Assembly (NCBI RefSeq): GCF_020921035.1
Contig: NC_063151.1
Coordinates: forward strand, 23,938,934 to 24,002,933
Length of the DNA: 64,000 bases
Direction of reading: 5' to 3'
From: Rhodamnia argentea
Lineage: Eukaryota > Streptophyta > Magnoliopsida > Myrtales > Myrtaceae
Of this stretch, positions 3,201 to 64,000 are shown in pieces. The notes under the pieces are model-generated. The model had not been told where the DNA came from. It ran no database searches and saw only the letters and a program-made list of their open reading frames with translations. A program made the position numbers and the translations under genes. How positions within the stretch are numbered: position 1 is the first letter of the stretch; each line of letters begins with the position of its first letter.

Positions 3201-6200
3201 CCCCTCACTTAAATTACAGGTGCTCGGTTGGGAAATCGAACCCGGAACAAGTGCACCTAACCATACAATCCCAATTGCGCCCTAACCAACTGAGCCACCC
3301 ATGGGTGGGTCAGAAGGTGATCAGTTTAATGTCTAACTTTTCAACTTTCCATTTTGAAGAGGACATAAGATCACGGTCTGGCTTGACCCAAGGGCTTGTT
3401 CAATTGGACTCTGATATTTCTAATTTCTTCTTCACTACGGAAAATAAAGAAGCTACATGAGCTGATTGCTTGAGTAAAGCTGGTGCGAGCATACTTGGTC
3501 CTCCTGAAGCCCATGTAGAAATAACAGGAAAAATCTATTCAATGTTCCACTTAACAATGTTTAAAATTATGTGCCGCTATTTCGTGAAAAGTGAGAACAT
3601 CTACTATTCCTCTGGACCTATACTATCCAAAGTCTAATGCTTCTCTCTATATTTCCAGATCAACCTTTCCAAGCCCCAAACTTCAAATGTACCAAAAGTA
3701 GGAATAATGCAATCCATGTATGAGAGATAGGTTTGCTTCACCCAACAGCAGCCTCATTTACTAATATTGTCAATAGTCAAAACATCTTTCCCGACGACCT
3801 CCAAAGCATATTAAAAGAGCTTGGGAATTTTTCATAGAAGGAAAATTAAAATGGACTATAAACGAACCAAGTGACTCATGAGCTACTCAAGAATCACCTG
3901 TCTATTGCTTGAACTCAATTCGATTCTTGTCTTAGAACTCGAGGTTGATAAGGCTTGACTCGAGTAGTAGAATTTTATATAGAAATTTATGTGTTTCATT
4001 TGTAAGTATTACGAGCAGCTAATGACTATTTTTTTTCAAGTTTAGATGATATTTTAAGAATTTGAGTTCAAGCTCGAGACTCAGTTCAAGCTTAAAATGA
4101 GCTTAGATAAAAATAAAAATAAAAAAATATTACAGTAGAGTCCAGATGAGTTTGAGCTTATAAGAAAACTTAATCGAGTCCATCGAGCTTGTGAAAACAA
4201 AGCTTGAGGCAAGTATCGACCTGTGCATACTAGAGACAAGCCGAGCTTGAGTATCAAACTGCCATGACTCGACTCATCTATTCCCCAACAAGACTCCAAA
4301 ATGCCATGTCCAATAGATATCCATATGCATAAAACGTCATGACTTCTAGCATAAACAGGAGTAAACTAGTCGAACAATAGTTTAGATATTAGTGGATCAT
4401 GCAAGGACAGAAGATCATAGGTATGAGTAATCTTATTAGGAAAATATATGATGAAACAGCAAGAAAATGGCAAAGAAAATGCTATATAACAAGCAAGGAG
4501 TTACTAAGAAGCATCATTTTACAAGTGTAGATATATTGCCTGAGACTTTTCCTAAAGTGATGTAGCAACTTCCATTGTAAGAATTTTCCTAAAGTGATGC
4601 AGCAACTTCCATTGTCCAAACAACCACTTTTCTTTCATTCCCAATTTCATATCAGACAAGGCTATGTGCACGCGACATTGCAAAGAAGCTTTAACAAAAG
4701 TTTAACACCAGTAGCACTGTCCCTCAGAGTAAAGAGGTAATTACCGAAATATCAAGCTGCTTGGCAACATATGCAGATTTTTTCAGGACTTCCTCTTGTA
4801 TGCGGGCATCAGTATCGTCATAAGCTCGAACCAATAATGGCAGGACATGAGATATTAACTGCTCCTGACTAGTCTACAATAACATTCAGGCCAATGTCAT
4901 GATCACTAACATTGGATATAAGGCATGTACATGATAGCAGAAATTAAGGTACACAAGTAGCACTGTTCCTAGGAAAACCTAATATGGATGGGCAGTATTT
5001 ATTGATGCATCTGAAAAAACAGAACTCACAATCCCTAGGTTGCATAAGAAATAACTTGAATTTTCGTCAGTCCACACATACTAATTTGATAGAGTCAACA
5101 AGTAATTTAACTAATCCTGTTGGGACTGGAAAGCCAGCGTCTAAGAAAGGCTATAATTTGCATGATTTTATTAGCACACGTTAGGCCTGCCCACTTCGAA
5201 AGTTGAAAGAAATCTAGTCATAGCTGAAGCAACTGAAAGCAACTAATTTGTTATCGACCGTTAACAGAAAAAAAAAAAAAAACAAAGATCACACTAAATT
5301 TATCGGTAACAGACTCCCTCGTGAAAGGATGTTGGAGCAGTTGAACAATAAATTCAAACTACTACTTTGAACACCCAGCAGCAATGTTTAGAAAAAAGAT
5401 GTCCTTCACACAAATCCCAATAACAGTTTAAGCAAGTTAAAGACCTGATTTTATGGTAACTCATTGCGTTTAGTTAACTGATGATGCTTGAAGTGGAAAG
5501 GGCAGTACAAAGTAAAGGAACCCAAGCAACTAAAGAGATATATGGGCAAACCAAAAGAACTGATTCATCCAAAATTGAAGGGAAATGGCTTGTATATATG
5601 TACATATGTCTTCCTAGTTTCTCCACCCAGAAAATGCCACTTAATTTGGAGGAGGAAAAACATCAGAGATCTTTCATACAGTTTCTTCCAATCTCTTTTC
5701 ACGGCAACCAAACCAGTTGACAAGCCAGAGGTTAATCCAGTTATGACAGTTATTATCATCTCCAACCAACACGAGAAGCTTCTCTTCAATGTACAATATG
5801 TTAGAGAAATCTCAGCTCCCCCATTTCACTTAAGCAATTACCTTGTTGATAATTAGGTCTGCGCACTTCACGAGCAGTAGCAGTGTCTCACCAGAAGCAG
5901 AACTGAGGACAGGAACAAGTGCTGGAAGCGTAGATAACTCGAAATCATTTTTATCCTACAAAAGGAACTGACAATGTCTGAGAACATAAACTATCTAATA
6001 AATCAAGGCCTTCACCACATATACTTCGGCAAAAGCCAACATCCAACTAGAGAGGATATACGCACGCACGCACGCACGCATGGCACTTAGCATAAATTCA
6101 TGTTTACCCTTGCATAAACAAACACAAACAACCATACAAGGGAATGCAAATGCTAGCGATGGTGTAAGTGTCGGCAGGGTCCAGAATTCTGGCAACCCAA

Positions 6201-9200: not shown

Positions 9201-12200
9201 CATCATGATTTGTCTATATTAATTATCCAGCCAAGAGTGAGTTGACAAAATACTATAACTATGCATACCAGCATGTGGTCAAGGAAGCGAAGAGCTCTCA
9301 ACCTCGTGTCATCTCGAAAAAATGGAGAACCTGCCAAAAAAGGAACTTGAATCTTAAATAGTTAAAGAAACAGATGTCATTATCAAACATACAAACGAAG
9401 GATATGAAGTTCATCTAAGCTGTAATTGAACAAAAAACCATGTCCTTCATCATTTTTTTTTTAAGTAAAGGAAGGAAAATCTAAAAGAAGCTCCGCTCCT
9501 TATAATCCACGTTGTCAACAGCTACCTATTATCTCTAACTCTGCTGCTCCCAGCTTCAATAGAATTACATATGGCCAATCACCCCACTTCAAGCCAAAAT
9601 GCTTCTTCATCCCTTAATTACCAAGAACTCACCCTATAGTCAAACTGTAAGTTCTAATTCTGTTTTTCTTCCAAGGAGTTTCACTTTATAACTGGTCTCA
9701 TCTTGTGGAAGAAGAACGTAAAATTATTAAGAAGAGAAACAGAGAATCAGAAACTAAAGAGAAGACCTCTGTTCTCATGGTTAATAGGACATCTCTCCTT
9801 GGGGTTATGAGGACCTTCAAGATGGACAAGGAATAACCCGAGAATTTAGCCATCAATTCAAAACTACCATTCCCTTCACGTACCAAACTGAATATACAAG
9901 ATATCTAAGCCGTACCAACTGCACAGCTTAACTAATGACCAGAAACCATAAAGTGAAGATCAATTAATTGACTTTATTAGCCACTAAGTTGTCTCTTCAG
10001 ATTTGTAAATCGCCCCTTTTTCACTAATACAGAATCAATCCACAAAACAACATCAAGTAAGGACCTGTGAAATCAAGTGCGGTAGGCCTGAAAGATTCAT
10101 TTGCTGAAAGCATTCTGTGCAAGTCAGGAACTAACTCAGGAGGAATAGTTGAGAAAGCTTCCTTTGATAAGTATGTCAACGTATTCGTATACTGCACATA
10201 GCACACCCAAAGCAAAATGCCTCAGTAGAACACCATATATCGAGAGACGTCCCATAGAAATATGTTTGTCCACCAATACCCCTATACAGCCGCACAATTG
10301 GGTGATATTAGATAGAAGGACAAGCCCAACGTTTGATAGAAAAGTACCATTTTGACATTGTTATGGCAGTCGAACAAAGGCTTGCGAGCAATTAAGTGGT
10401 AAGCAAGGCATCCAAAACTAAATATATCAGAAGCATGCCCAGCTGAAGCTGTTTTGCTCCGGACCAGTTCAGGAGCAGTGTAATTGAGTGATGGCTGCAA
10501 GGGCAGTACAGAATCCTCAACATCATATTCCTGCATGATCATCACAAAAGCTGGCATAAGTAATCAAACTGCCATCATTCTAATATCCGCAATAACATAC
10601 TGAACAAAATGCAAGAATTGTGCTGCACACAACTGTCATGACTTGAATACAAGAGAATTTTCAGTCTATCTCCACAGGTTTCCATCATTAAGTACAAGAT
10701 CGAGAAAGGTAGGCTTAGCAAGAGGACAAGAATCAAATAGGGAGAAACTAAAAAAAACACAATCAGCCACTAACTAACAGTCAAGATTCAGTAGAATCTT
10801 CATGAATAAAGGAAAAAGATAAGTAACTTTCACCAACATCTATTGTGAGATCAAATAACAAGAAAAGGAACGTGCAACGGTTATGTCTCGAGGAATAGAG
10901 AGATGAAAACAAAGTCATTCTTTTTCACTCGTCGTCTTATTGAATTATCCACGTACAGAATAATGGAAGGGTTGCAGATTAGATGAATCTCCCGAGGCCT
11001 GGTCTGAGGAAATGGCAAAACCAAATCCGCCAAGCTTCCAAGCTCCACTTGATGTAATAAGCACATTCTGCAAAAAAAAATTTCTTCCAGCGAATTACTT
11101 ATGCATGTCCAAAAACCCATCTACTCGTCTTCAAAAAAAGAGCGAAATTACATGATTTCACTTAAAAGTGTAGAAACATCAACCACTAAAGGAAAAGACG
11201 GATTTTTTCTACATAAAGGGGGAAAATATTGAGTTGCGAGTGCAAATACCCTGGAAAGCATCATGAAGACGGTATGACAAGAATTTTAGGGAACGTAAAG
11301 TTGTACAATTAGGTAAAGCCCTTCATGTCTAACATAGAGGGCAACTATCATGTCACTAAATAGTGGTGACAAGAAATAAACATGCACCCAAGCAAAGAAG
11401 AAGACAGCACTCAGCTAAAAGATCCTCTTAGCTCCAGTATTAACAATGAAGCATAACAAATTAGTCGTATTATGTGATCCAAGACAGAAAGAAATAACTT
11501 AACACTACACTATGTTTCTCTTCCAATGATCACTAAGGCAAGTTCAGGGAAAAGACATGGTGCCCAAAGAATTAACCTCTGGTGATATCGACCGATGTAT
11601 GAGACGTGCATTATTGTGGAGAAAGTCCAGCGATTCCGCTATTTGTAGCAAACCGTGCTTCACCTCTAACAACCCCATCTCCTGCAAAGAAGACACGTAT
11701 TGACTAACTTAAAAGAACATAAACCTGAATGAATAGAAAGACATGAGACACCAAGCCCCTCCACATTTTGCAATTCTTGGCACCAATATCCTCAAATTTA
11801 CATCCACACCTCTACAGATCCTAGCTGATACTCGTAGGAACTTAGAGAAGCTGAGCCAAAAACAAGGGGTTATGGACATCAATATGCTTTCTTAAATAGC
11901 AGTGCTCCATCCAAAAGCAGAAGTTTCTTGTAAGAACAAATTGAAGATAATAATAGCCATCCTCAGAGAAGACATTATGCATTAAATGAAAAAAGCACGT
12001 GCAAAATGTCATTAGAGAAGTCCCATAAACATAGTGGGTTCCTAATTTGCCTCCCCATCTGAGCCAAGGAAATAGTCTTCCTGGACTATTTGAGGCATTC
12101 ACCCTACCCTCTCCTGAACCAAGATTAACAGGAGGCTTGTGCACCAGACACGCTCCTTCTAGTTCAATTTCCGTAAATATTCCTATCAAATTACTATTCA

Positions 12201-13052
12201 CCTTACCCTCTCCCAAACCAAGATTGAAAGGAGGCTTGCACACTAGATACGCTCCTTCTAGCTCAATTTCTGTATGAATTCCTATCAAACTAGTTATCGG
12301 AAAGAGGTCCTATCTGAGTCGGACCAATGTGAACTATGTAATCAGTTTAATCAATACTGAGGATCACCAAAAACAAACTAAGTATAAGGTCAGGCGAGCA
12401 AAACCTAACAATGGTTGCAGGAAGCAAGTTTCGGAGACATGAGTAAATATGACAACGCCTCTAATTGTCGAAGCACGTAAAATGCAATGAACGAACGCGT
12501 TTACACTGTCGCCGACAACTGAATAAGAAATGAGGAGAATTTGACAAGAACACGGACCATGCCCTTAAGCTCCTTAGGAACCTTGGGAACATTCTCCAAA
12601 TTGCCCAGCCCATTGGCGACAGACGCGAACAGGGGTTCGGTAACCATGGCCATGGCATACTTGCCCTCGTCCAGCGCCTGCACAACGTGGACCACCCCCG
12701 GATGCCGGAGGCGCACCAGCCGCGCAGCGTCCGCCCGAACTATATCCAAGAAGGCGTCCTCCGCGGCCTTGGATAGCCCGGCGCGCGCGCGCGCCTCGGA
12801 GAGGACGCGCTTGTCGAGGACCCAGACGCAGACCTGGGGGTACTGGTGGGCGCGGGCGGAGTCGCGGGAGGCCCTGGCGGAGTAGAGCTTCCAGGCGAGG
12901 GCGGGGCCAGCGGAGCCGATCTGGTCGATGAGCTCGTAGTCCTGGAGGGGCTTCGGGCCGGCGACCTCCTGGACTGTCGTCTGCACAGTCTTCTCGATCA
13001 CGGCGCTGGCCTTGGCGAGGGCCTGGGTCAGGGTCTTCATGTTTAGAGCCAT
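207..13052 (-). CDS. SCYL2: SCY1-like pseudokinase (SCYL2 family), 14 exons, 916 aa
   Basis: SCYL2/CVAK104 proteins are clathrin-associated pseudokinases of the trans-Golgi/endosomal trafficking route. Exons in coding order: 12558-13052, 11577-11681, 10957-11067, 10348-10530, 10065-10191, 9269-9330, 9096-9182, 8215-8301, 5842-5955, 4745-4873, 2261-2323, 1461-1622, 1208-1326, 207-1113. All introns read GT-AG and the exons sum to 2751 nt. The kinase-like fold spans about residues 37-341: IGSAGPALA replaces the Gly loop (45-53), HRS replaces HRD (194-196), and GFG replaces DFG (214-216), so catalysis is unlikely. A HEAT-like helical region follows to about residue 620. The low-complexity tail carries [12 protein letters not shown] (a DPF adaptor-type motif), a GRGRGRG patch, and ends SLLDLL, which resembles a clathrin box. 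The start [10 protein letters not shown] is the family N-terminus. Introns 8 and 10 exceed 2 kb because of insertions. Family assignment is firm; partner binding is inferred from the family. Confidence 0.93.
2425..2760. repeat. Possible non-LTR retrotransposon 3' remnant in SCYL2 intron 10
   Basis: The stretch begins with CCCAAACTAGTTGGGGTCGG and later has GGCCAACCTCTTCCTTTCTTC. Both resemble a widespread plant repeat that I associate, from memory, with RTE-like LINE 3' regions. No reverse-transcriptase coding is visible, and both ends are unclear. Confidence 0.3.
3099..3323 (-). mobile_element. tRNA-derived SINE with 12-bp target-site duplication
   Basis: Read on the minus strand, the element starts near 3311 with a tRNA-like head. 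It has an A box TGGCTCAGTTGG (3286-3297) and a B box close to GGTTCGATTTC (3232-3242). A non-tRNA body follows and ends in GGTTATAAAAAAA (3111-3127). The body is about 201 bp (3111-3311). It is flanked by perfect 12-bp direct repeats AGAAGGTGATCA at 3099-3110 and 3312-3323. The head, the A-rich tail and the duplication together define a SINE, resembling Au-type plant SINEs. It lies in intron 10 of SCYL2, in the same orientation as the gene. Confidence 0.88.
4547..4620. repeat. 37-bp tandem duplication in SCYL2 intron
   Basis: TTTTCCTAAAGTGATG followed by (T/C)AGCAACTTCCATTGT occurs at 4547 and again at 4584, with one mismatch in the aligned part. This is a recent two-unit local duplication in intron 10. 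Confidence 0.8.
5842..5955 (-). CDS. SCYL2: SCYL2 exon 9 (example of an exon absent from simple ORF views)
   Basis: This 114-nt exon encodes 38 residues beginning [19 protein letters not shown], part of the helical repeat region. It follows a TAG acceptor and precedes a GTAATT donor. It is listed separately because it sits about 2.2 kb from exon 8 and would be missed without splice reasoning. Confidence 0.85.
6060..6079. repeat. (CGCA)n microsatellite
   Basis: About five CGCA units lie in SCYL2 intron 9, directly followed by TGGC. Confidence 0.85.
7154..7855. mobile_element. TIR element (MITE) in SCYL2 intron 8, family 'ggcaaaaggacacc'
   Basis: The left end GGCAAAAGGACACCTCAAG is mirrored by the right end, which reads GGCAGAAGGACACCTCAAG on the minus strand. 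The similarity continues for about 100 bp, for example GGCGCTCATTTTGGTGCC on the left against AGCGCTCACTTTGGTGCC on the right. The centre holds a perfect 14-bp-arm hairpin at 7442-7474 (CAGTGGCGAGGGCT / AGCCCTCGCCACTG). No transposase is present. A related copy is at 54401. I could not define a clear target duplication. Confidence 0.75.
12097..12294. repeat. 99-bp imperfect tandem duplication in SCYL2 intron 1
   Basis: Units 12097-12195 and 12196-12294 both begin ATTCACC(C/T)TACCCTCTC and are about 85% alike. The period is a multiple of three, so on the minus strand both lie in one open frame (11842-12288). That frame shows a repeated 33-residue pattern (IEIELEGA.LV.KPP.NLG-like). Confidence 0.85.
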
Positions 13053-17678: not shown

Positions 17679-18989
17679 AAGATTTAAGACGTACATAGAA
17701 TGGATAGGACCATTCCTCCTTATCCTTTTCCTCGTGTCTCTCTCTCCCTTCATCCTACCATTATCATATTTTTGAAAACCATTGTGTGCCATCCTCATCC
17801 CTCCTAATAAACAAAACGTAGCTGATAAGGTGAATTTAATGTTAATCTCAACATATTGGGATTAAACTTATTGCAATTTTGTCAATTCAACTATAAACTT
17901 TTTTACTGTGACAATTGAATCCCCAACTTTTTTCAATGGCGAACGTGAGTATCGATCGTTCTACGTGTCACAATTGACGCCGACGTGGATCTTTTTATAT
18001 TTTTATATTTTTCAATTTTTTATTTTATTTTCTGCTTTATTGTGGCAGCGAGGGCTCGACGACTCTTGCCGGCCACCATAAACAAAAGAAAAAGAGAAGA
18101 AAAAAATGTTAAGAAAAATAAAAAAGTAAAAATTAGTAAAAATTTCATCGTCGGGCACCCACATCAGTTATTTTCAGAAAAAAATTATCCGATAGACTCA
18201 ATTAAAAAAATGTGAAAATATATATATATTTTTTTGGTCGGAACGAACATATTTATTTCATATGAAAAAGGAGTATATAACTCAAATCCCACAAAGCAAG
18301 TAAAATAAGTAAATCTGAAAAGTGAATCAACTTAGTACTGCTTGTAGAGATTAACATATTCCACAAAAACGGATGCGGCGGCCAATCACCAAATCTTACA
18401 TCTTGATCGGTGATGAGCACCCGCCTAGAAGATCCTCTCTAGTAACTACGATTTTACCAAAAGGCGGTACGCGCCTAGGTTCGGCGTCCCGGTGCCATCA
18501 CCAAAATAGGTTGAAAAATACATAAAATGCATTGTAAATCCCAGATCTAGAGATAAATCTAGATGGAAGAGTACTCGAATCTAAATCTAGCTCTAAATCG
18601 AGAGAGAAGGGCTACAAAAAAAATACCAATTTATCACAAAATCACTTTCAAATAAACCAAAGACAGTAGCAAAGGAACCTCAAAGCCAATCATTCGATTA
18701 TCTAGAGCAAGCACTCGGAGTCGGAACGAGCGAGCAGACTTGAGAAAATTGTCGAGGCACTTGCGCTTCGATTTTCAAAGCTTACTTCCGTGAAGAACGT
18801 CGACAGCATGCTCCACAAAATCGACGAAAAAACCCAAAAAAAATAGAGAAACAAAAGAACAAAAATAAAGAAATGAAGATGGGGAGGAAGAAAGGGAGCG
18901 AGGAAGGGAGAGACTCTCTCGTGGGGTTTGCTTCGGTAAAGGTGAGAGGCAGCGTCTTGACAAAGAGAAACCCTAGGAGAGACACTTTA
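17679..18989. other. Repeat-derived spacer with no clear gene
   Basis: 17820-18060 resembles degraded arms of the 15.2-kb TIR family (GTCAATT..AACTATAAACTTTT). At 18231 a T-tract with TTTTTTTGGTCGGAACGAAC opens a stretch whose end matches the core of three tail-only insertions elsewhere in the window. The rest (18300-18960) is unrecognised. Confidence 0.4.
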
Positions 18990-19266: not shown

Positions 19267-19414
19267 CATATGCTCCCCCTTTCATTTTTGTCACAAATTC
19301 TCCGAACAATCTCTCGAATTCTCTCTGAAATCCTCTCAAATCGCTCAAATTCTCCCAATTCTCTCAATCCCGACTCAATTCTCTCAATCGGATTTCCGAT
19401 CAATTCTCTAAAAA

Positions 19415-21580
19415 ATGGCAAGTGGAAGCAGAAATGCCGACAAGGGCAAGATGACTATGGGAGATTCCGAGTATCCCATTCCCGAATATGATCTTTGTGA
19501 GTATGCAAGTTGGGAAGACGACGACGATAATATCAACTATGTCCCGATTCCGAACGTTGAGCACATCCCAACACAAGAAAGTTTTCATCCTCCCACTAGT
19601 GTCGAAGAAACGTCAACGGCAAATGAGCCGGAACGGAAGAACCGAGATAATACATCCGACTTGTGGCTACACTTCGACAAGGTACGTGATGAAGGCGAAG
19701 GTAAGTATAATATAAAATGTAAATATTGTTCGCAAATATATAAATTTTCGAAAGGATACGGTTACGGAACATTCCGTCGGCATTTGACAAAAAAACATCC
19801 AACGCAAGCGGGGATCGACAATACGCAACAACAAATTTCCGGGTACACCACTTTTAATCCTCATCCTATATTTCGTTTCACTGAAGCACTTTATAAACAA
19901 ACATTAGGTGAATATGTTGCCCTTGATCATGCTTCGTTTAATACTGGTGAAAATTTTAATATGAAATATTTGATAAATACTGCGTTGGTTCGCATAGCGC
20001 CAACTATTCCAAAAAATACTCTTAAACGCGAAGTTTTTCATCTTTATAAAAAAGGAAAAAAATCTTTAGCAAAATTTTTTGCTGAATTCAATGGACGTGT
20101 GAATATAGATAGCGATATTTGAAGTGATCCTTGGCAAATTCATTCTTATACGGGTGCCACGTGTCATTGGATAGGTGACGATTGGACGATTCAAAAAAGA
20201 CTTATTGCATTCCGAGTTTTTGATGAAAGACATTCGGCTTATAATATTTATAGAATAATTATGCAAGTTTTAGAAGAATATAATTTAATAAATAAAGTAT
20301 TTTCAATTGGTTTTGATAATGCCGCCGCAAATACCGCTTCTATTCCCGAATTAGAAAATATTTGCAAACCCACTTTTGGCGGATAATTTTTTCACATTAG
20401 ATGTACTTGTCATGTTTTAAATTTATGTGTACAAGATGGTTTACGAACTCTTGACACTTCTCTCGCCCCAATCAAAAATGCAATTAAATTTTTATGGAGT
20501 CGTCCCTATTGTATGAAATCATGGGGAAAATTTTGTAAACAAAATGGGAGAAGGGCAAGAAGATTTCCAAAAGATATTCCGACTCGTTGGAATTTTACGT
20601 ACGAGTTGCTTCGGCAAACTTTTGAATATAAAGATTTATTATGTATGTTTATTTCACAAAACATTCCTGAAATTACTTTACTTCCTCAATATTGAGACGT
20701 TTGCAAGAAAATTTTAGATATTTTGAAAATTTTTAATGATGCTACTAAGACTTTATCTGGTATTTATTATCCTACAACGCATTTATTTTTAATAGAGTGT
20801 GTTAATATTGGTAGTGTTTTTAGTGAATATGAAAATGATATCGAATTAGGTCGAACTATTTTAGTAATGCGAGAAAAATGGTTGCATTATTATTTGCAAA
20901 TTCCTCTTGTCTATTTAGTTGGTATTGTTTTTGATCCACGTATTAAATTAGACAGTTTACAAGATTATTTGAATGTGTATTATCATGATTGTTTACATTT
21001 GGAAGATTCAATAGATATTTCAAATATACTAGGAGATGTTAAAGAATCTATAGTAGCATTATATGGAGAATTTCGTAGTAGATATGGTTTAAATGATTAC
21101 GGATCTTTACAATCTACTGCCTCACGTAGCGAAGGTGGTAGTTCACTTAGTAGAGGGTATAATATGCTTAAGAGTAGGCAAAAAAAAATAAAAAGGGGCA
21201 ACAAGTAGTATTTTTGAATTAGAAAAATATTTAACCACTCAATTTGAGTTTCGTGATGCGTAACATAGTACAGATTTCGAAATCCTGAAGTGGTGGAAGA
21301 GTCACCAAATCGATTATCCAGTTCTCGCCCTCATCGCTCGTCAAATATTAGCAACCCCTTCTTCAACGGTTGAAGTTGAACAAGCATTTAGTCTTTGGGG
21401 ATTAATTTTGGACTCTCGCCGTTCAAGATTAAGCCCGGACTGCGTGGAAGCTCAAGCTTGTATCGGCGATTAGACGAGGGCGAAATATCGACACCAATAG
21501 TTAGATCGTGAACATGAATTTTTTAGCGATGATGTTGGAGATACCACTGCCACGGGTACCACAACGGGTAGCGACGATTG
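19415..21580 (+). pseudogene. hAT transposase pseudogene (BED zinc finger, RICESLEEPER-like)
   Basis: The first frame (19415-20122) gives 235 residues with a BED finger: SDLWLHFDKV, then CKYC and HLTKKH. Downstream frames keep hAT hallmarks: GDDW, CHVLNLCVQDGLR, TRWNFTYELL, then a C-terminal dimerisation part with QILATPSSTVEVEQAFS. Coding is broken by in-frame stops at 20120-20122 (TGA), 20384-20386 (TAA) and near 20695 (TGA). A frame change follows about 21200, with more stops near 21262 and 21472. Copy 2 has Trp (TGG) at the first and third stop sites, so those stops look like G-to-A changes in copy 1. The second stop is shared with copy 2. The gene is not functional. Confidence 0.9.
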
Positions 21581-21842
21581 ACGATGAGGTAAGTTGGGGT
21601 TATCAAAGGTAAAAGAACTACATGAGCTTTGATTCTTCTATCCCCAAGAAGATATGTAGGCATAATTCATTAAGTTCAAGCCCATTCCTTTTTTTTCCCC
21701 CATATTTTATTACAATGTACAATTTAATTGTATTTTATAATTTATAATTTATTATGTTTATTTTATTATTTATTATTTTAAAAATTATTATTAAAAAAAG
21801 AATCGGAATGAACCGCCGATTCCGAAGCGGAACCGGAACCGG

Positions 21843-28944: not shown

Positions 28945-30119
28945 TCACTCCCTGTTTCGAGAGATAAAAAATTTTCAGTGGTCCAGTGGCTGAAAGTTTG
29001 GACGGTCTCCCAGAAAGAGAAGGCCTGGCTTCCCATCTAAGAACCTCAGACTAGGGTTTTCCGGGATGTATTTGTCATTGATAGGAGATAGATAGGGTGA
29101 AGGAAGACGAGGTCCATCCTGTTTGCTGGGCGAGAGTACTCATGTAAAGATGCGGGTCGCATTCGAGGGTCCAATGTGGAAGTTAAGATCCCCTGGAAAC
29201 TCTCCAAAATCAGGTTTCGGGATAGAGTGCCCTTACTGCGCCGCGTTGATCTCCGGTCAAATCACCTTGTGGGGTAGCAACTCTCCTCATCTTTCAAGTG
29301 CTAGAAGATCACTCCTTTTCATTTGGTTCCCGCCAAGTCTCTCTTCCTTACGTGATGGCCCTTATGGGCAGGACTTAGATAGTTTAGCGGCCTTGCACTT
29401 TTTGAACACTTCCATATCTGTAATAAAGCACCACACGGACAGATAGCATGTTAGAATTCAATTCATGATCTCTAGAATCGATTTTCCGAATGAATCCTTC
29501 GCGCAGGAATCTTTAGGAAACAATCTTATGTCGTCCTAAGATGGCTGCGTCCATATTAGACCCTTAGAGCAAGGTTGTATGCAGGGTTGTGCCAATTTAG
29601 CTGAAGTTGTACTTTCGAATGGTGACTATTCCGTGGGAAGGCTTATTTGGAACTCAACAGCACCGCATTCAGCTTCAATGTTTCATACGACTCTTCTAAT
29701 CTGTTATAACGTTGTTGAGAGTTTAAAAAAACAATTGGCGGATCTATAAACTCTTCCATGCTAAATGCACCACGGTTCTTCGAACAATTTCGAGGGGAAA
29801 TGTCCGCATTTTAAATAATCTTCGGACTTTTTAGCCTCCTTTTTTTTTTTTTCTAGAAGTAAGTAGAAAGAAACCATTTAATTTAAATACAGTTAGAATA
29901 TCTTTGACCCTTTTTTTTTGTGCTTTTAATTCCTTTTTGAGATTATTTTTATTATAAAATTGCGCAATTTTATTTTTTTGGTCAAATAAAATTGCGCAAT
30001 TTACACGCGCGCAAATGCGTCGACTTCTTTTTTGAATCGCAGAGACACACCGCCTCGCTCCTTGGCAATTGGCATTCATGCAAACACAAAATTGAACGAG
30101 GACTCTCTCTCTCTCGGAA
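28945..30119. other. Intergenic spacer with a tail-only insertion
   Basis: No gene is recognised. It contains T-rich tracts (29838-29853, 29910-29920) and the 15-bp insertion with 17-bp direct repeats at 29954-30002. The leader of PTD (CTCTCTCTCTCTCGG) ends the region. Confidence 0.5.
29954..30002. mobile_element. Tail-only retroposon footprint A
   Basis: The 17-bp word ATAAAATTGCGCAATTT occurs at 29954-29970 and exactly again at 29986-30002. The two copies are separated only by TATTTTTTTGGTCAA. This looks like a target-site duplication around a 15-bp insert whose minus-strand reading is TTGACC plus an A-tail. Confidence 0.6.
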
Positions 30120-55504: not shown

Positions 55505-57520
55505 TTGCATGTCGTTGCCACCTTTGAACCGAAACCGGAACCTTAAGGGGCGGGTCCAGTTCCAATTCTGAACCGGCGGTTAAAGGCCGGTTCCGGTTTC
55601 GCCGATTTTTAAATTTAATTTTAAGATAATGAATTACGAAGTAAAAAAATAATAAATTATGAAATAATGAAATAATAAATTATCAAATATAAATTGTAAT
55701 CAAGTTGTACATTGTAATCAAATTTGAGGAGAAAAAAATGAGAGGGGGAAGGGGCTTGAACTTAATAAATTATCATTAAACGCCTACATATCTTCTTAGG
55801 GATAGAAGAATCAAAACTCATGCAGTTCTTTTACCTTTGATAACCCCAACTTACCTCAATCGTTGATACATGTTCTAGTACCCGTGACGGTAGTATCTCT
55901 ATCACCATTGAAAAAATCGGCTTCATTGTTGCGATCCATCTCTTGTTGTCGATGTTTAGCTTGTTCAATCATTGACACAAGCTTGAGCCTTTACCGAATC
56001 CAAATGTAATCTTGAACGTCGGTCGTCCAAAATGTTGCCTCAACGCTAAATGTTTGTTCAATCGCAACTGTTAAACAAGGAGTTGCTAAAATCTGTCCTG
56101 CGATGAAAGCCAGAATTGGGAATTCGGTTGAATGCCTTTTCCACCACTCTATAATGCTGAAATTTGTGCCGCCTTCGGAAACATCAAACTCAAAAGAAAT
56201 GGTTAAATAGGTCTCTATTTTAAAAACATTACTTGTTGCTCCCTTTTGTCTTTTTTGTCTGCTCATCAGCATTTCGTGCCCTCTACTAATTTTAAATAGG
56301 TCCTCCCTTTGTACATCAGTATGTTGGGAAGATCCACTATCACCTACTAGATTATATCTACTATAAAATTCATTATACAATTCTACTATTGTTTGTTTAA
56401 CCGTTGCTTGTATAGCTCTAACACCTGCCACTTCATTCAAATGAAAACATTCATAATACGTAGTCAAATAATCACCTAAACCATCTAATTCGATACGTGG
56501 ATCGAAAATAAAATCAACCAAATAAATAAGAGGAATTTCGATATAATAATGCATCCATTTTATTCGCATTGCTATAATAGTTGGAGCTAAATTATCATTT
56601 TTTTCATATTCTTAAAAAACACCAGCAATATTCATACACTCTATTAAAAATAATGCATAATAGGATAATAAACACCGAATAAAGTATAAGTTGCACCGTT
56701 AAAAACTTTTAAAAAAACTAAAATTTTTTGGCAAATATCCCACTCTTGTGGGAATAAATTAATTTCAGAAACATTATTCTAAATAAACGTACATAATAAA
56801 TCTTTATATGCAAAAGATTGATGAAGCAACTCGTACGTAGAATTCCAACTAGTGAGAATAACTTTTGAAAATCTTTTTGGCTTTCTTTTATGTCCTTCAC
56901 AAAATTTGCCACATTCTTTCATAATTTGAGGATGTTTCCATAAAAATTGAATTGTTCCCTTTATCGGGCTAAAAAAAATCAATAATTCGTAAACCATCTT
57001 GTACACATGAATTTAAAGCACGACAAGCACATCTAACGTGAAAAAATTATCCACCAAAAGCAGGTTTAAAAATCCTTTCTAAATCGGGAATGCAAGCGGT
57101 ATTTGTCGCTGCATTATCAAAACCAACTAAAAAAATTTTATTAATCAAATCATATTATTCTAAAACTCGCCTAATTACTTTATAAATATTATTGGCCGTC
57201 TGTCTATCATCAAAAACTCGAAATGCAATAACTCTTTTTCGAATATTCAAATCGTCACATATCCAATGATGTGTGATACCCATATAAGAATGAGTTTGCT
57301 AAGGATCACTCCAAATGTCACTACCTATATGCACACGTCCATGACAATTCATAAAAAAAAATTCAACTCTTTTTTTCTTTTTTATAAAGCCTAATAAATT
57401 GGCGTTTAAGCGTATTCCTCGGAATAGGTTGTGCTTGCGAAGTACATGCAGTGTTTGTAAAATGATTAAAATCAAAATTTTCACCAAAATTAAACGATAA
57501 ACGTTCGGTAGCTGCAAATC
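55505..57520 (-). mobile_element. hAT-superfamily transposon relic, copy 2
   Basis: A minus-strand relative of the 19-kb element. Its 3' side (55525-55600) keeps the GGAACCGG-rich subterminal sequence and may end at GTTGCCACCTTTGAACC (about 55514). The 5' side stops near 57520 without the BED finger or the leader, so the copy is 5'-deleted. Limits are approximate. Confidence 0.7.
55991..57517 (-). pseudogene. hAT transposase pseudogene, 5'-truncated
   Basis: The fragments in order are HGRVHIGSDIWSDP (near 57310), the FFHVRCACRALN region (near 57030) after an in-frame TAA at 57047-57049, SWNSTYELLHQSFAYKDLL (near 56850), and a 192-residue C-terminal open frame (55991-56569). That frame includes PLIYLVDFIFDPRIELDGLG, WWKRHSTEFPILA and a QILATP...VEATF dimerisation motif. 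The BED finger is missing and several frames are broken, so it is inactive. Confidence 0.88.
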
Positions 57521-57820: not shown

Positions 57821-57867
57821 AGGGATTTTACATTTTTTTTTTTTGGTCGAAAGGGATTTTACATTTT
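57821..57867. mobile_element. Tail-only retroposon footprint B
   Basis: The 16-bp word AGGGATTTTACATTTT at 57821-57836 is repeated exactly at 57852-57867. The spacer is TTTTTTTTGGTCGAA (15 bp). It has the same T-tract-GGTC core as footprints A and C. Confidence 0.6.
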
Positions 57868-61100: not shown

Positions 61101-64000
61101 ATTGGAAAGAGAAGGTATGAATTAGTTGCTTCTGAAAACATTTGATTGTTATTTGTGCACTTAAAGGAAAATCTGATACCACTCAGTATTAATTCTTTGA
61201 TGTCTTCTAAACTCATCTTCTGTGGTGGAGCTGTGGGCTGAACTCTTCATTTTTAACGACTGTCAGTAATATACGTGATACAGAGCTACAAACCAAGTGG
61301 GCCAAATGTTGAGAATATGTGCTTTGAACAAGTATGGTTTAGGACTAGCAGTAACCCTTGATTCTTTCTATGGTAAAAGATTCCAAAAAGATTTTGTTTT
61401 TAGCTATTATTTGTACTGATTTTTGCTGCAGTTATTTTGTATATGTTTTCTCATCATCTCTAGATTTATTTCTGTTTCTAATCGATGGGTATGTACTCAT
61501 CTGGCTCCCATAGTGTTTACTTTCTTTCCATGGCTTCACGATGAAAGATGAGGGTAATATTTTGACGCGCTTCATGGTGTCTTATGTTGCACATGATACT
61601 GTAAGCAATAATCTGAAAATGATTTTTGCTGCTGACCAATTCCTAGAACGGTGTTAGGACTAGCATGGATGTCATTTTCGAATTAATATTTCATTCTAGC
61701 AGAAATGTCGGCTGGGTAATTAGCTTTCGCTAGTGTGATTGTTCAACTTTTCCTGAGTGATTACGGGGCTTGTTAAACAGGGTCATAGGTTGAAATTGAT
61801 TTCGCTAGTAGGTTCTTGAAATGATTTTTAATTCTGGGCGATTCTTAAAAGGGTGTTGGACTAGGATAAAGGTCGGCTGGTTTCCAATTCATATTCGTTT
61901 CTAATATGAAGGCCAACTTTTTTTGTTCAATTAGTGTATGTTTCTTTTCTAATGGAAAGATCATCTGCTTTTATTAAGTAACCGTCCCTAAAAGGTTAAG
62001 GTTCCAAGGCAGGAGGACATACATGGTTTTCAATCAATCAGCAAAGATTCCTCGACAAATCTGTAGTTTTTCAGTGCAGGTCAGAGTTGGTACTTATCAT
62101 TGGGATATGCCAGCTTAAAAAGTAGGATAATTGGTGCTTACTTAATGAAGTGGAAAGAATGATTATGTTTTTGTGCTCTAGTATTCATCTACGCCATGTA
62201 GTTATCTTTTACGCAACTGGTTGGACTCTTTCACCTCCATGGCCGTATACAATGAGGATGCTAAAGCTTTATTATCTTGCTTGGCCAGCGTGAACGGTGG
62301 CAAAAACCTATATTGCGGCGTCTCCAGGTTAGTTTCTCTTCATGAGCTTACATATAGACATACGAAGGATGGCTTGTTAATGACCATCACTTTAACGTCT
62401 TCCATGACATTTATGATACCTATTGGCTTCTTATGTCCTTTTTGTTCTTCTAATTTCCTCTTATGCAGCCTCCCCCACCAGTTAATGACACCAACCCCTA
62501 CAATGTCTTTAGACCCAGGGAGAAAGCCCATAGACTCCACACAAGAAGGGTAGTCAATTGTAGCACTTATGTCTTACTTTCTTCGCTATCATCATTATGA
62601 TCTGCCTTCCCATAGATCTCATAAGCTATGTGATGATCTTTTCAGATGCAACGGAGAGAAAATAATGTGCAATCATTTGAAAAGCTTCGTCAGGTCTGTA
62701 TAGCTAATGCCAAAAGTTCCCCCTTTTATAACATCGTCTTTTTTAGCTGGTTGAGAAATCATACATGCATAGATATTCTCCAGTATTGTTCTATTTGCTG
62801 TCCAGCAATCATGAGATTGGTTTCATACTTGGGATATAGAACATTTAATTAAATGGTTTTAGAAATTCGATAGACTTGAGGCATCCATCAGTAAATCATA
62901 GCTCTATTCCTTCTGGTTATGCAAAGGGGCTCAATTCTCTATGGTATAGTGGATGGTCCTTCCATACTACCTCATTATTGATTCTTGTTATTTCAAAAAA
63001 AAAAAAAAAAAAAAAGGAGGAAAGAAGCTGAAGCAATGTTTGAAAGATGAAGGCTTTGCATCAAAATTAAATATCAACAAAAGACGACTTAAATGACACC
63101 TGATTTTCCTCAAACTAAATGATTTTTTTCTTATGGAAACTTCGCGTTGGATCTTCTTGAGTTCATGTTTCATATTGGTCTTGCTGAAGGATCCACATAC
63201 AAATCGTCTATGACTTAAAGGACCAGGATGGTTTGAGCCAATAGGGTGAACTAAGTGGATTTGACTTTTTCTCTGATCGCTTGGAATTCTCCCAAGTAAC
63301 TTCTATATGCTTCAAACTATGATTCGCGCCTATCCTCTGGGTCTTTCTATAAGCAACATATAATTTTCTTTTTTTGGTCAGAAGCAACATATAAAAACAA
63401 TGGAGAAGCAAATTAAAGGGTATAACTAGATGGATCTTACTAGATGTTTCTATTTCCACAAGAGCTAATTTCTAACCTGGAGAGGTATTCTACTTATTAT
63501 TGACAAGAATGTCTGATATTCTCTAGCATACAGCCTTTCATTTTACAGGGGTTACAACCTATTTCAGCATGAATAATTAATTAAATCTGAACTTCAATAT
63601 GCATTGATCCACTTTGTTAACCTTTGCAACCTTAAGCTCTCTCTGAGAGTATTTATACATTTTGCCAGTCAAACATAGAAAATAGCTTTCTCCTCAGAAA
63701 TTTTACACGGGATGGAAATGTGAAATTCTCTGAAAGTAAATGCAAAAATTACTGACTAATACTTCAAAGCATGAGTTATGATGAGAGATTATGTGATGAA
63801 ATGATATCTGTTTTTCTAGTTAATACCATTGGATAGGGAAATACTTCTCAGAAATCTTGCCACATGAAGGATGACATCTCTCTAATTGTGAATCTTGCAC
63901 AAGAAATGCATGTAGAAATGGAGAAATGTAACGTCCAAAATCCTCTGACATGTGCTGAAAAAAATTGCATTCAAGCAAATCAACGTTCAGTGAGAAAAAA
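58189..64000 (+). CDS. EPL1: Enhancer-of-polycomb-like protein (EPL1), partial, continues past the window
   Basis: EPL1/EPL proteins scaffold the catalytic (Piccolo-like) module of the NuA4 histone acetyltransferase in the nucleus. Visible exons: 58189-58368, 58467-58599, 58700-58802, 59656-59779, 61049-61114, 62289-62327, 62469-62549, 62646-62693. They total 774 nt and 258 residues, all GT-AG. The start MSRLSFRPRPLDIHKKLPIV is the EPcA domain signature. EIPTPEYVVVDTYERDY, ARAELGEFIEYDLDNEDEDW, RERWQKPILRRLQ and FRPREKAHRLHTRR follow in family order. The last visible exon ends QSFEKLRQ with a GTCTGT donor. I found no further exon before 64000, so the next intron exceeds 1.3 kb and the C-terminal part is off-window. 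Intron 4 is about 1.27 kb and intron 5 about 1.17 kb. Confidence 0.9.
62694..64000 (+). other. EPL1: EPL1 intron 8 (incomplete) with tail-only insertion C and poly-A run
   Basis: No exon with the expected RRNLDQA-type continuation is seen. It holds a 20-bp-scale A-run at 62996-63015 and the 63351-63394 duplication structure. Confidence 0.55.
63351..63394. mobile_element. Tail-only retroposon footprint C
   Basis: The 13-bp word AAGCAACATATAA at 63351-63363 recurs exactly at 63382-63394. The spacer is TTTTCTTTTTTTGGTCAG (18 bp). It shares the TTTTTTTGGTC core with footprints A and B. Confidence 0.6.

Follow-up and report, generated by a model that had tools for sequence, protein, structure and literature searches.

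Here we report that the genome containing the 64-kb window studied here (the window being the whole stretch of DNA that was analysed) appears to hold thousands of LINE scars copied only ~7 nt past the poly(A) tail. Each of these footprints consists of a T-tract and a short heteropolymer lying between two copies of the target sequence, and they were probably left by target-primed reverse transcription that aborts at a fixed position of the RNA, once ~7 nt beyond the poly(A) junction have been copied. Scars of this type also come from a second LINE family, whose 3′ end differs; neither this family nor the narrow truncation point was foreseen in the earlier note on the window that the analysis followed up.

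Footprints in the window

A T-tract/GGTC insert within perfect direct repeats of 13-17 bp is a real feature of the window. The 15-bp insert that the earlier note had described inside a perfect 17-bp direct repeat at 29954..30002 was verified as an exact match, and the two further loci mentioned there, with the same core and unrelated flanks, lie at 57821-57867 and 63351-63394 (Table 1). When the window was scanned for direct repeats of 12-25 bp separated by 6-70 nt, with low-complexity repeats excluded and no T-tract required, eight pairs emerged, three of which are footprints A, B and C; four of the other five overlap tandem arrays identified by a tandem-repeat finder, the fifth is a GC-rich pair near 21.8 kb, and ten block-shuffled windows yielded zero or one pair each against the eight of the real window. 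All three footprints, found in this way without requiring a T-tract, have the A-tail on the LINE-sense strand at the side of the first nick.

Table 1. Coordinates of the three footprints and their target-site duplications in the window.
Feature	Position	Strand	Remarks
Footprint A, target-site duplication copy 1, 17 bp	29954..29970	.	exact repeat, ATAAAATTGCGCAATTT
Footprint A, insert TATTTTTTTGGTCAA	29971..29985	-	minus strand TTGACC + A-tail, 6-nt heteropolymer; 3′ end shared with LINE tails
Footprint A, target-site duplication copy 2, 17 bp	29986..30002	.	identical to copy 1 (ATAAAATTGCGCAATTT)
Footprint B, target-site duplication copy 1, 16 bp	57821..57836	.	
Footprint B, insert TTTTTTTTGGTCGAA	57837..57851	-	minus strand TTCGACC + A8, 7-nt heteropolymer
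Footprint B, target-site duplication copy 2, 16 bp	57852..57867	.	
Footprint C, target-site duplication copy 1, 13 bp	63351..63363	.	
Footprint C, insert TTTTCTTTTTTTGGTCAG	63364..63381	-	minus strand CTGACC + A-rich tail, 6-nt heteropolymer
Footprint C, target-site duplication copy 2, 13 bp	63382..63394	.	

The window has a fourth T7GGTC at 18229-18239, followed by GGAACGAACATA, which is without a flanking repeat and is possibly an old footprint or a chance occurrence. Other features include open frames that resemble, when named by eye, a leucine-rich-repeat protein, a receptor kinase, a PP2C phosphatase and a hAT transposase, a gene content suggestive of a flowering plant. Two hAT-like transposase copies, also named by eye, lie ~34 kb apart in opposite orientation at 19412-21755 and 55672-57386 and are 78-96% alike in pieces, and there are short tandem duplications at 12097-12289 (99-bp unit, 85% matches) and 4543-4615 (37-bp unit, 94% matches). 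A search of the whole window against Rfam at gathering scores found nothing.

Abundance of the footprint word and its flanking repeats

Across the genome (346.66 Mb in 74 contigs, with the window in contig 2) the word T7GGTC occurs 6,955 times (3485+3470), compared with 786 (400+386) for the reversed, non-complemented word, which is the sole genome-wide control for this count. Flanking repeats were analysed at 73 sites, comprising the first 69 listed on contig 1, taken in order (8 fetched as loci, the other 61 within 60 stretches), and the four sites of the window; the 69 unselected sites span only the first 3 Mb of one contig. Sites sharing identical flanks were meant to count as one, and near-duplicates (L065/L067/L069, L066/L068 and L095/L096) were retained. 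A direct repeat of at least 9 bp within 25 nt is present at 32 of the 73 sites, against a mean of 0.40 and a maximum of 2 when the downstream flanks were swapped in 50 permutations, and a repeat of at least 11 bp at 23, against a mean of 0.04 and a maximum of 1. Recounted within 15 nt, 23 sites have at least 11 bp, nine have 9-10 bp and 41 have no repeat. At least four of the 32 positive sites sit inside repeats (L059, L066, L068 and L098), and a few of the cases with 9-10 bp are weak. As the window sites make up three of the 23 with at least 11 bp, the unselected share of positives is 29/69. A repeat with phrases like GGTCAATTGAGTCCTAAA (L001, L004, L059, L073 and L078) seems to explain some of the T7GGTC occurrences other than footprints.

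Parent LINEs and a second footprint family

Using the zf-RVT family as a LINE marker, we scored 150 matches of 907 candidates and fetched 30 loci, and both RVT_1 and zf-RVT are present in the two loci tested. Ten of the 30 loci have a GACC-A(n) tail downstream, six of these reading TTTC[C/T]GACC-A(n); five have a TTACC-A(n) tail, all five reading CTTACCTTACC-A(n); and the remaining 15 show neither tail within the fetched DNA. The complement of the family-A LINE 3′ end, T(n)GGTC[A/G]GAAA, is the footprint word, and the proposal that the minus-strand ..GACC with its A-tail represents a LINE 3′ end is thus matched by LINEs of the same genome that end ..GACC-A(n). From their tails and domains (RVT_1 and zf-RVT in two loci, poly(A) behind GACC or TTACC in 15/30) the parent LINEs are probably L1-type. 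The parent LINE copy of an insert of ~7 nt is not identifiable, and the link of family A to LINEs is therefore drawn from the last 4-7 nt together with the tail. When the downstream flanks of the 73 sites were compared by BLAST with the 30 LINE loci, no site ran on into a LINE 3′ UTR; seven sites had matches, and only that of L059 starts at the junction, where it matches DNA of L033 outside its LINE.

Since the second LINE family ends CTTACCTTACC-A(n), a second footprint word, T(n)GGTAAGG, was predicted and then found. Genome-wide there are 1,397 copies of T7GGTAAG (760+637) against 62 of the control (32+30), and 1,224 of T7GGTAAGG (663+561) against 11 (6+5). A flanking repeat lies within 30 nt in 20 of the first 30 family-B loci listed, and 19 of these have a heteropolymer of 6-13 nt, the remaining one, L101, having 25 nt; ten loci are without a flanking repeat, two of which (L104 and L111) run on into LINE sequence. 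L101 (about 1482-1560) has a 16-bp repeat and an insert with a T-tract and GGTAAGG at one end and AAAGG and A13 at the other, and looks as if both target ends had been primed on poly(A) RNAs (twin priming). At L006 (about 1718-1800) two repeat pairs overlap at nearly one target; their inserts end in GGCTGAA and GGGTCCAAT, which gives the impression that one footprint arose next to or inside another.

A rough extrapolation of 29/69 to the 6,955 words gives ~2,900 family-A footprints with T7 and an intact GGTC, or ~2,500 when the four repeat-embedded sites are omitted, and 19-20/30 applied to 1,397 gives roughly 900 for family B; both sizes derive from sites at the beginning of a single contig, and copies with mutations or shorter T-tracts are not counted in them. 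The suggestion that three such inserts in one window reflect a common insertion class is borne out by these numbers, estimated in the thousands from word counts and flanking-repeat rates, and the class exceeds its controls both in the number of words (6,955 against 786) and in the repeats around them (32/73 against a swap mean of 0.4).

Empty sites and target features

The footprints arose by insertion. The joined flanks of 28 footprints with repeats of at least 14 bp were searched in their own genome for paralogous sites, with 40 matches scored of 322 candidates, so that a missing match says little. These 40 comprise 20 self matches and 20 elsewhere, the latter belonging to six of the 28 footprints, and 11 of the 20 non-self places were fetched. 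Four footprints (L099, L119, L113 and L120) have clean empty paralogs, nine in all, that lack both the insert and one copy of the repeat; the two paralogs of L113 have a single-base difference in the target word, and the target of L119 lies within a repeat having 14 such matches, five of which were read. The insert is also absent from the paralogs of L062 and L127, which are diverged near or in the target word and are consistent with this result. Because these paralogous empty sites hold a single copy of the target, the footprints are insertions, and the single-copy empty sites that the earlier note had hoped to see in related species exist at paralogous places in the same genome. Together with the LINE 3′ ends, they support its reading of the inserts as extreme 5′ truncations of a LINE or SINE. 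No body derived from a pol III promoter, as sought in a test for SINEs, is present in the listed inserts, which have only a T-tract and 6-13 nt; a SINE sharing the LINE tail may nevertheless serve as template.

Target features were compiled for 39 footprints, drawn from 41 that have repeats of at least 11 bp within 15 nt, a T-run being part of the search, after L059 and L098 had been dropped as lying inside repeats. The target-site duplication measures 11-20 bp with a median of 16, the lower bound of 11 being set by the search. The last two positions of the duplication are T in 32 and 31 of the 39, and the next base is A in 19/39, where a non-T base is partly forced by the definition of the repeat. 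A tendency towards the TT^A nick of an L1-like endonuclease is therefore present among the 39 footprints, and the duplication sizes and nick tendency fit L1-type insertion.

Length of the copied segment

The heteropolymer that follows the T-tract in these 39 footprints is 6, 7, 8, 9, 11 and 13 nt long in 9, 14, 9, 4, 2 and 1 cases, respectively, so that 36/39 fall at 6-9 nt, although the second repeat copy was sought only up to 15 nt away, which favours short inserts, and the words GGTC and GGTAAG fix the lower side. The 21 family-A and 18 family-B footprints have similar peaks (6-7 nt in A and 7-8 nt in B). The tail has a median of 12 nt between the repeat and GGT, and the net insertion amounts to 24-42 bp with a median of 34. 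Since the stop lies 6-9 nt past the poly(A) junction in 36/39, it is more specific than ordinary 5′ truncation. Of the 41 T7GGTC sites without a near repeat, just two have a longer candidate within 650 nt, both of low complexity.

Exact words give a further view of the same length. Of the 1,224 family-B copies that extend to 7 nt, 284 continue to GGTAAGGTAAG (11 nt), at least one of these 284 being a footprint whose target happens to match (L116); 77% thus end before 11 nt. For one family-A variant, T7GGTCRG (6 nt) has 1,416 copies, with 68 in the control, and GGTCRGAAAGATNA (14 nt) has seven, a count that is lowered by subfamily variation; exact words miss LINE bodies that are mutated or variant, and in the variable family A the resulting undercount is strong.

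An unconditioned scan of 325 kb, accepting any T-tract with the repeat structure and not requiring GGTC, produced 20 cases outside the targeted sites, compared with 3, 1 and 0 in three shuffles of the same 325 kb. Eight of the 12 cases with repeats of at least 12 bp have 5-12 nt, namely the three window sites together with GGGTCCAAT, GGTAAAG, GGTTGAAAAG, GGGTG and CTTTTGTCAATT, and four have 17-35 nt, these being the targeted locus L101 approached from the opposite end, two cases within simple-sequence DNA, and L122, which may be real. With repeats of 10-11 bp, two of eight have 5-6 nt and six have 32-46 nt. The length peak persists without conditioning, though numbers are small and some cases are longer, and the broad distribution of truncation points that ordinary random 5′ truncation would give was not found, the unconditioned scan being mixed on this point.

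Position of the stop

The lengths of T-tract and heteropolymer do not correlate (Spearman -0.04, n=39). The stop therefore does not come after a set quantity of cDNA, and a fixed total cDNA length was ruled out as its cause. The LINEs of families A and B have different 3′ sequences and nearly the same stop offset. Because of this shared distance and the missing correlation, the stop would appear to be set by the RNA. At 18 family-B junctions there is microhomology with LINE sequence in three, none in nine and 1-6 foreign bases between the two sides in six, and with 3/18 junctions microhomology-driven truncation was ruled out for this family. In the portion of the human L1 study drawn on here, nearly 80% of 5′-truncated copies have microhomology and full-length copies are at chance level (PMC2912911); unlike those truncated copies, the family-B junctions have little microhomology and so have the look of a template copied to completion or of a hard stop.

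Folding with RNAalifold gave a weak set of stems for the ten GACC tails and a stronger set for the five TTACC tails, with no conserved hairpin at the stop in either, the predicted stems lying tens of nt upstream. A GGTCGAA/TTCGACC hairpin just before the poly(A) was considered as a constant stop and dropped, as the LINE tails of the fetched loci do not have it.

Proposed mechanism and alternatives

We propose that one footprint would correspond to one insertion, carried out by a plant LINE of L1 type through its endonuclease and reverse transcriptase. A nick in a T-rich target (...TT^A...) would expose a 3′ end that primes on the LINE poly(A), in keeping with the TT^A tendency and the target-site duplications observed, and the tail would then be copied, followed by a short piece of the unique 3′ end, mostly 6-9 nt with 7 the commonest length, in agreement with the lengths measured. 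The RNA, and not the length of cDNA, would place the stop, after which the second strand would be cut ~11-20 bp away and joined with little microhomology; this presumed enzymology would yield the structure seen, which is one extra copy of the target, T(n) and ~7 nt. As the cause of the stop we would favour a LINE protein, or a protein or fold on the 3′-UTR RNA, that grips the template upstream of the last ~7 nt, so that with the template held most initiations would abort before the enzyme is released into elongation. We would give about even credence to the wider proposition that, in plants, reverse transcriptases of L1-type LINEs pass through a discrete abortive-initiation checkpoint, located ~7 nt beyond the poly(A) junction and set by an RNA-protein complex, at which most target-primed reactions end and are sealed, such that aborted insertions would outnumber LINE-bearing ones and rank, in such genomes, among the main sources of 24-42 bp insertions flanked by target duplications.

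It is unlikely that the templates were instead short RNAs, consisting of LINE 3′-end fragments (~7 nt plus poly(A)) that were cleaved from transcripts and copied to their 5′ end in trans, since the same cleavage offset would be needed in two LINE families of different sequence. To our knowledge, no LINE 3′-fragment RNA of ~7 nt plus poly(A) has been described. The junctions do resemble complete copying, with microhomology in 3/18 and extra non-LINE bases in 6/18 family-B footprints, and microhomology at chance is what full-length human L1 shows, the figure for 5′-truncated copies being nearly 80% in the part of that study cited above (PMC2912911). Ordinary 5′ truncation of LINEs or SINEs with broad lengths, of which mainly the shortest members were noticed, is very unlikely, even though such truncation is general in LINEs (truncated members of 100-1,000 bp are given in the portion of PMC3747384 used here) and the median duplication of 16 bp and T-rich nick fit normal LINE insertions. 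Lengths of 17-46 nt in four of 12 strong and six of eight weak cases of the unconditioned scan also speak for it, but several of these longer cases are in low-complexity or repeat DNA; moreover, intermediate lengths are few, the longer candidates at two of 41 sites without a near repeat are both of low complexity, and by exact word 284 of 1,224 T7GGTAAGG copies reach 11 nt.

That there was no insertion at all, the structures being chance repeats, replication slippage or local tandem duplication around a T-tract, is extremely improbable. Some of the T7GGTC sites with near repeats do lie in tandem or interspersed repeats (L059, L066, L068 and L098), but this explanation is contradicted by the empty sites that lack the insert and one repeat copy, by the insertion of one word at unrelated targets, and by the swap control, with its mean of 0.4 against 32 observed. 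Virtually untenable is an origin as the remnant of a DNA transposon, or as long LINE copies later deleted to a constant stub. Flanking direct repeats would suit such an origin; target duplications made by transposases, however, are generally of fixed length, and here the repeats vary between 11 and 20 bp, T(n) and a LINE 3′ end stand at one side, and a deletion is not expected to stop at the same 6-9 nt.

The scars are presumably too short to be readily seen by ordinary repeat annotation, in line with the nearly invisible class that the earlier note suggested, and LINE activity in such a plant genome would consequently be undercounted. With about 11-20 bp of target duplicated and a T-tract left behind at every event, the class is a steady source of small insertions. 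The footprints also offer a large natural data set of single reverse-transcription stops at near single-base resolution, and direct attention to a stage of LINE reverse transcription, after priming and before elongation, that is open to testing in vitro.

Comparison with known LINE systems

Heavily truncated LINEs have reportedly been the subject of a study in sugar beet. In a literature search limited to open-licence papers we recognised no description of an abundant class of LINE inserts with a fixed length of ~7 nt; the portions available from PMC2774510, PMC10664479, PMC4381410, PMC7617806 and PMC12180492 report neither such a class nor such a stop, and the survey for the fixed-length class also took in part of PMC13295347. 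The footprints resemble 5′-truncated insertions of the L1 clade, as in plant and human L1, in their poly(A) tail, target-site duplication of 11-20 bp and T-rich first nick, and in that the genome holds LINEs with RVT_1 and zf-RVT and matching 3′ ends. They are unlike truncated L1 in having an insert of just T(n) and mostly 6-9 nt with a near-constant stop, and unlike the truncated human copies, with microhomology at nearly 80% in the excerpt cited (PMC2912911), in that it is rare at the 18 family-B junctions.

A poly(T) insertion in exon 25 of human NF1 was possibly, as its authors suggest in the excerpt consulted, a “severely truncated” Alu, L1 or processed pseudogene (PMC3219598). As described there it is a single human case without a fixed heteropolymer, whereas here there are many copies with a defined end of ~7 nt. 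Plant L1 LINEs of the ME1 lineage in maize and sorghum have a conserved 3′-end stem-loop with a CGAG flank, according to the section of PMC3747384 drawn on, and they share with the parent LINEs a poly(A) end and possible recognition through the 3′ UTR; in contrast to the conserved CGAG flank and hairpin of ME1, the stems predicted here lie farther upstream. The Arabidopsis Sadhu elements include 5′-truncated copies with an A-tract and, in some, a target-site duplication, which are ascribed to abortive retrotransposition, and empty sites have been demonstrated for two Sadhu5 elements (both from the part of PMC2848041 consulted). Truncated Sadhu copies are, on that description, recognisable elements, whereas the footprints are stubs of ~7 nt. 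Hence the footprints belong to the LINE-insertion kind, and their fixed length is a new regularity.
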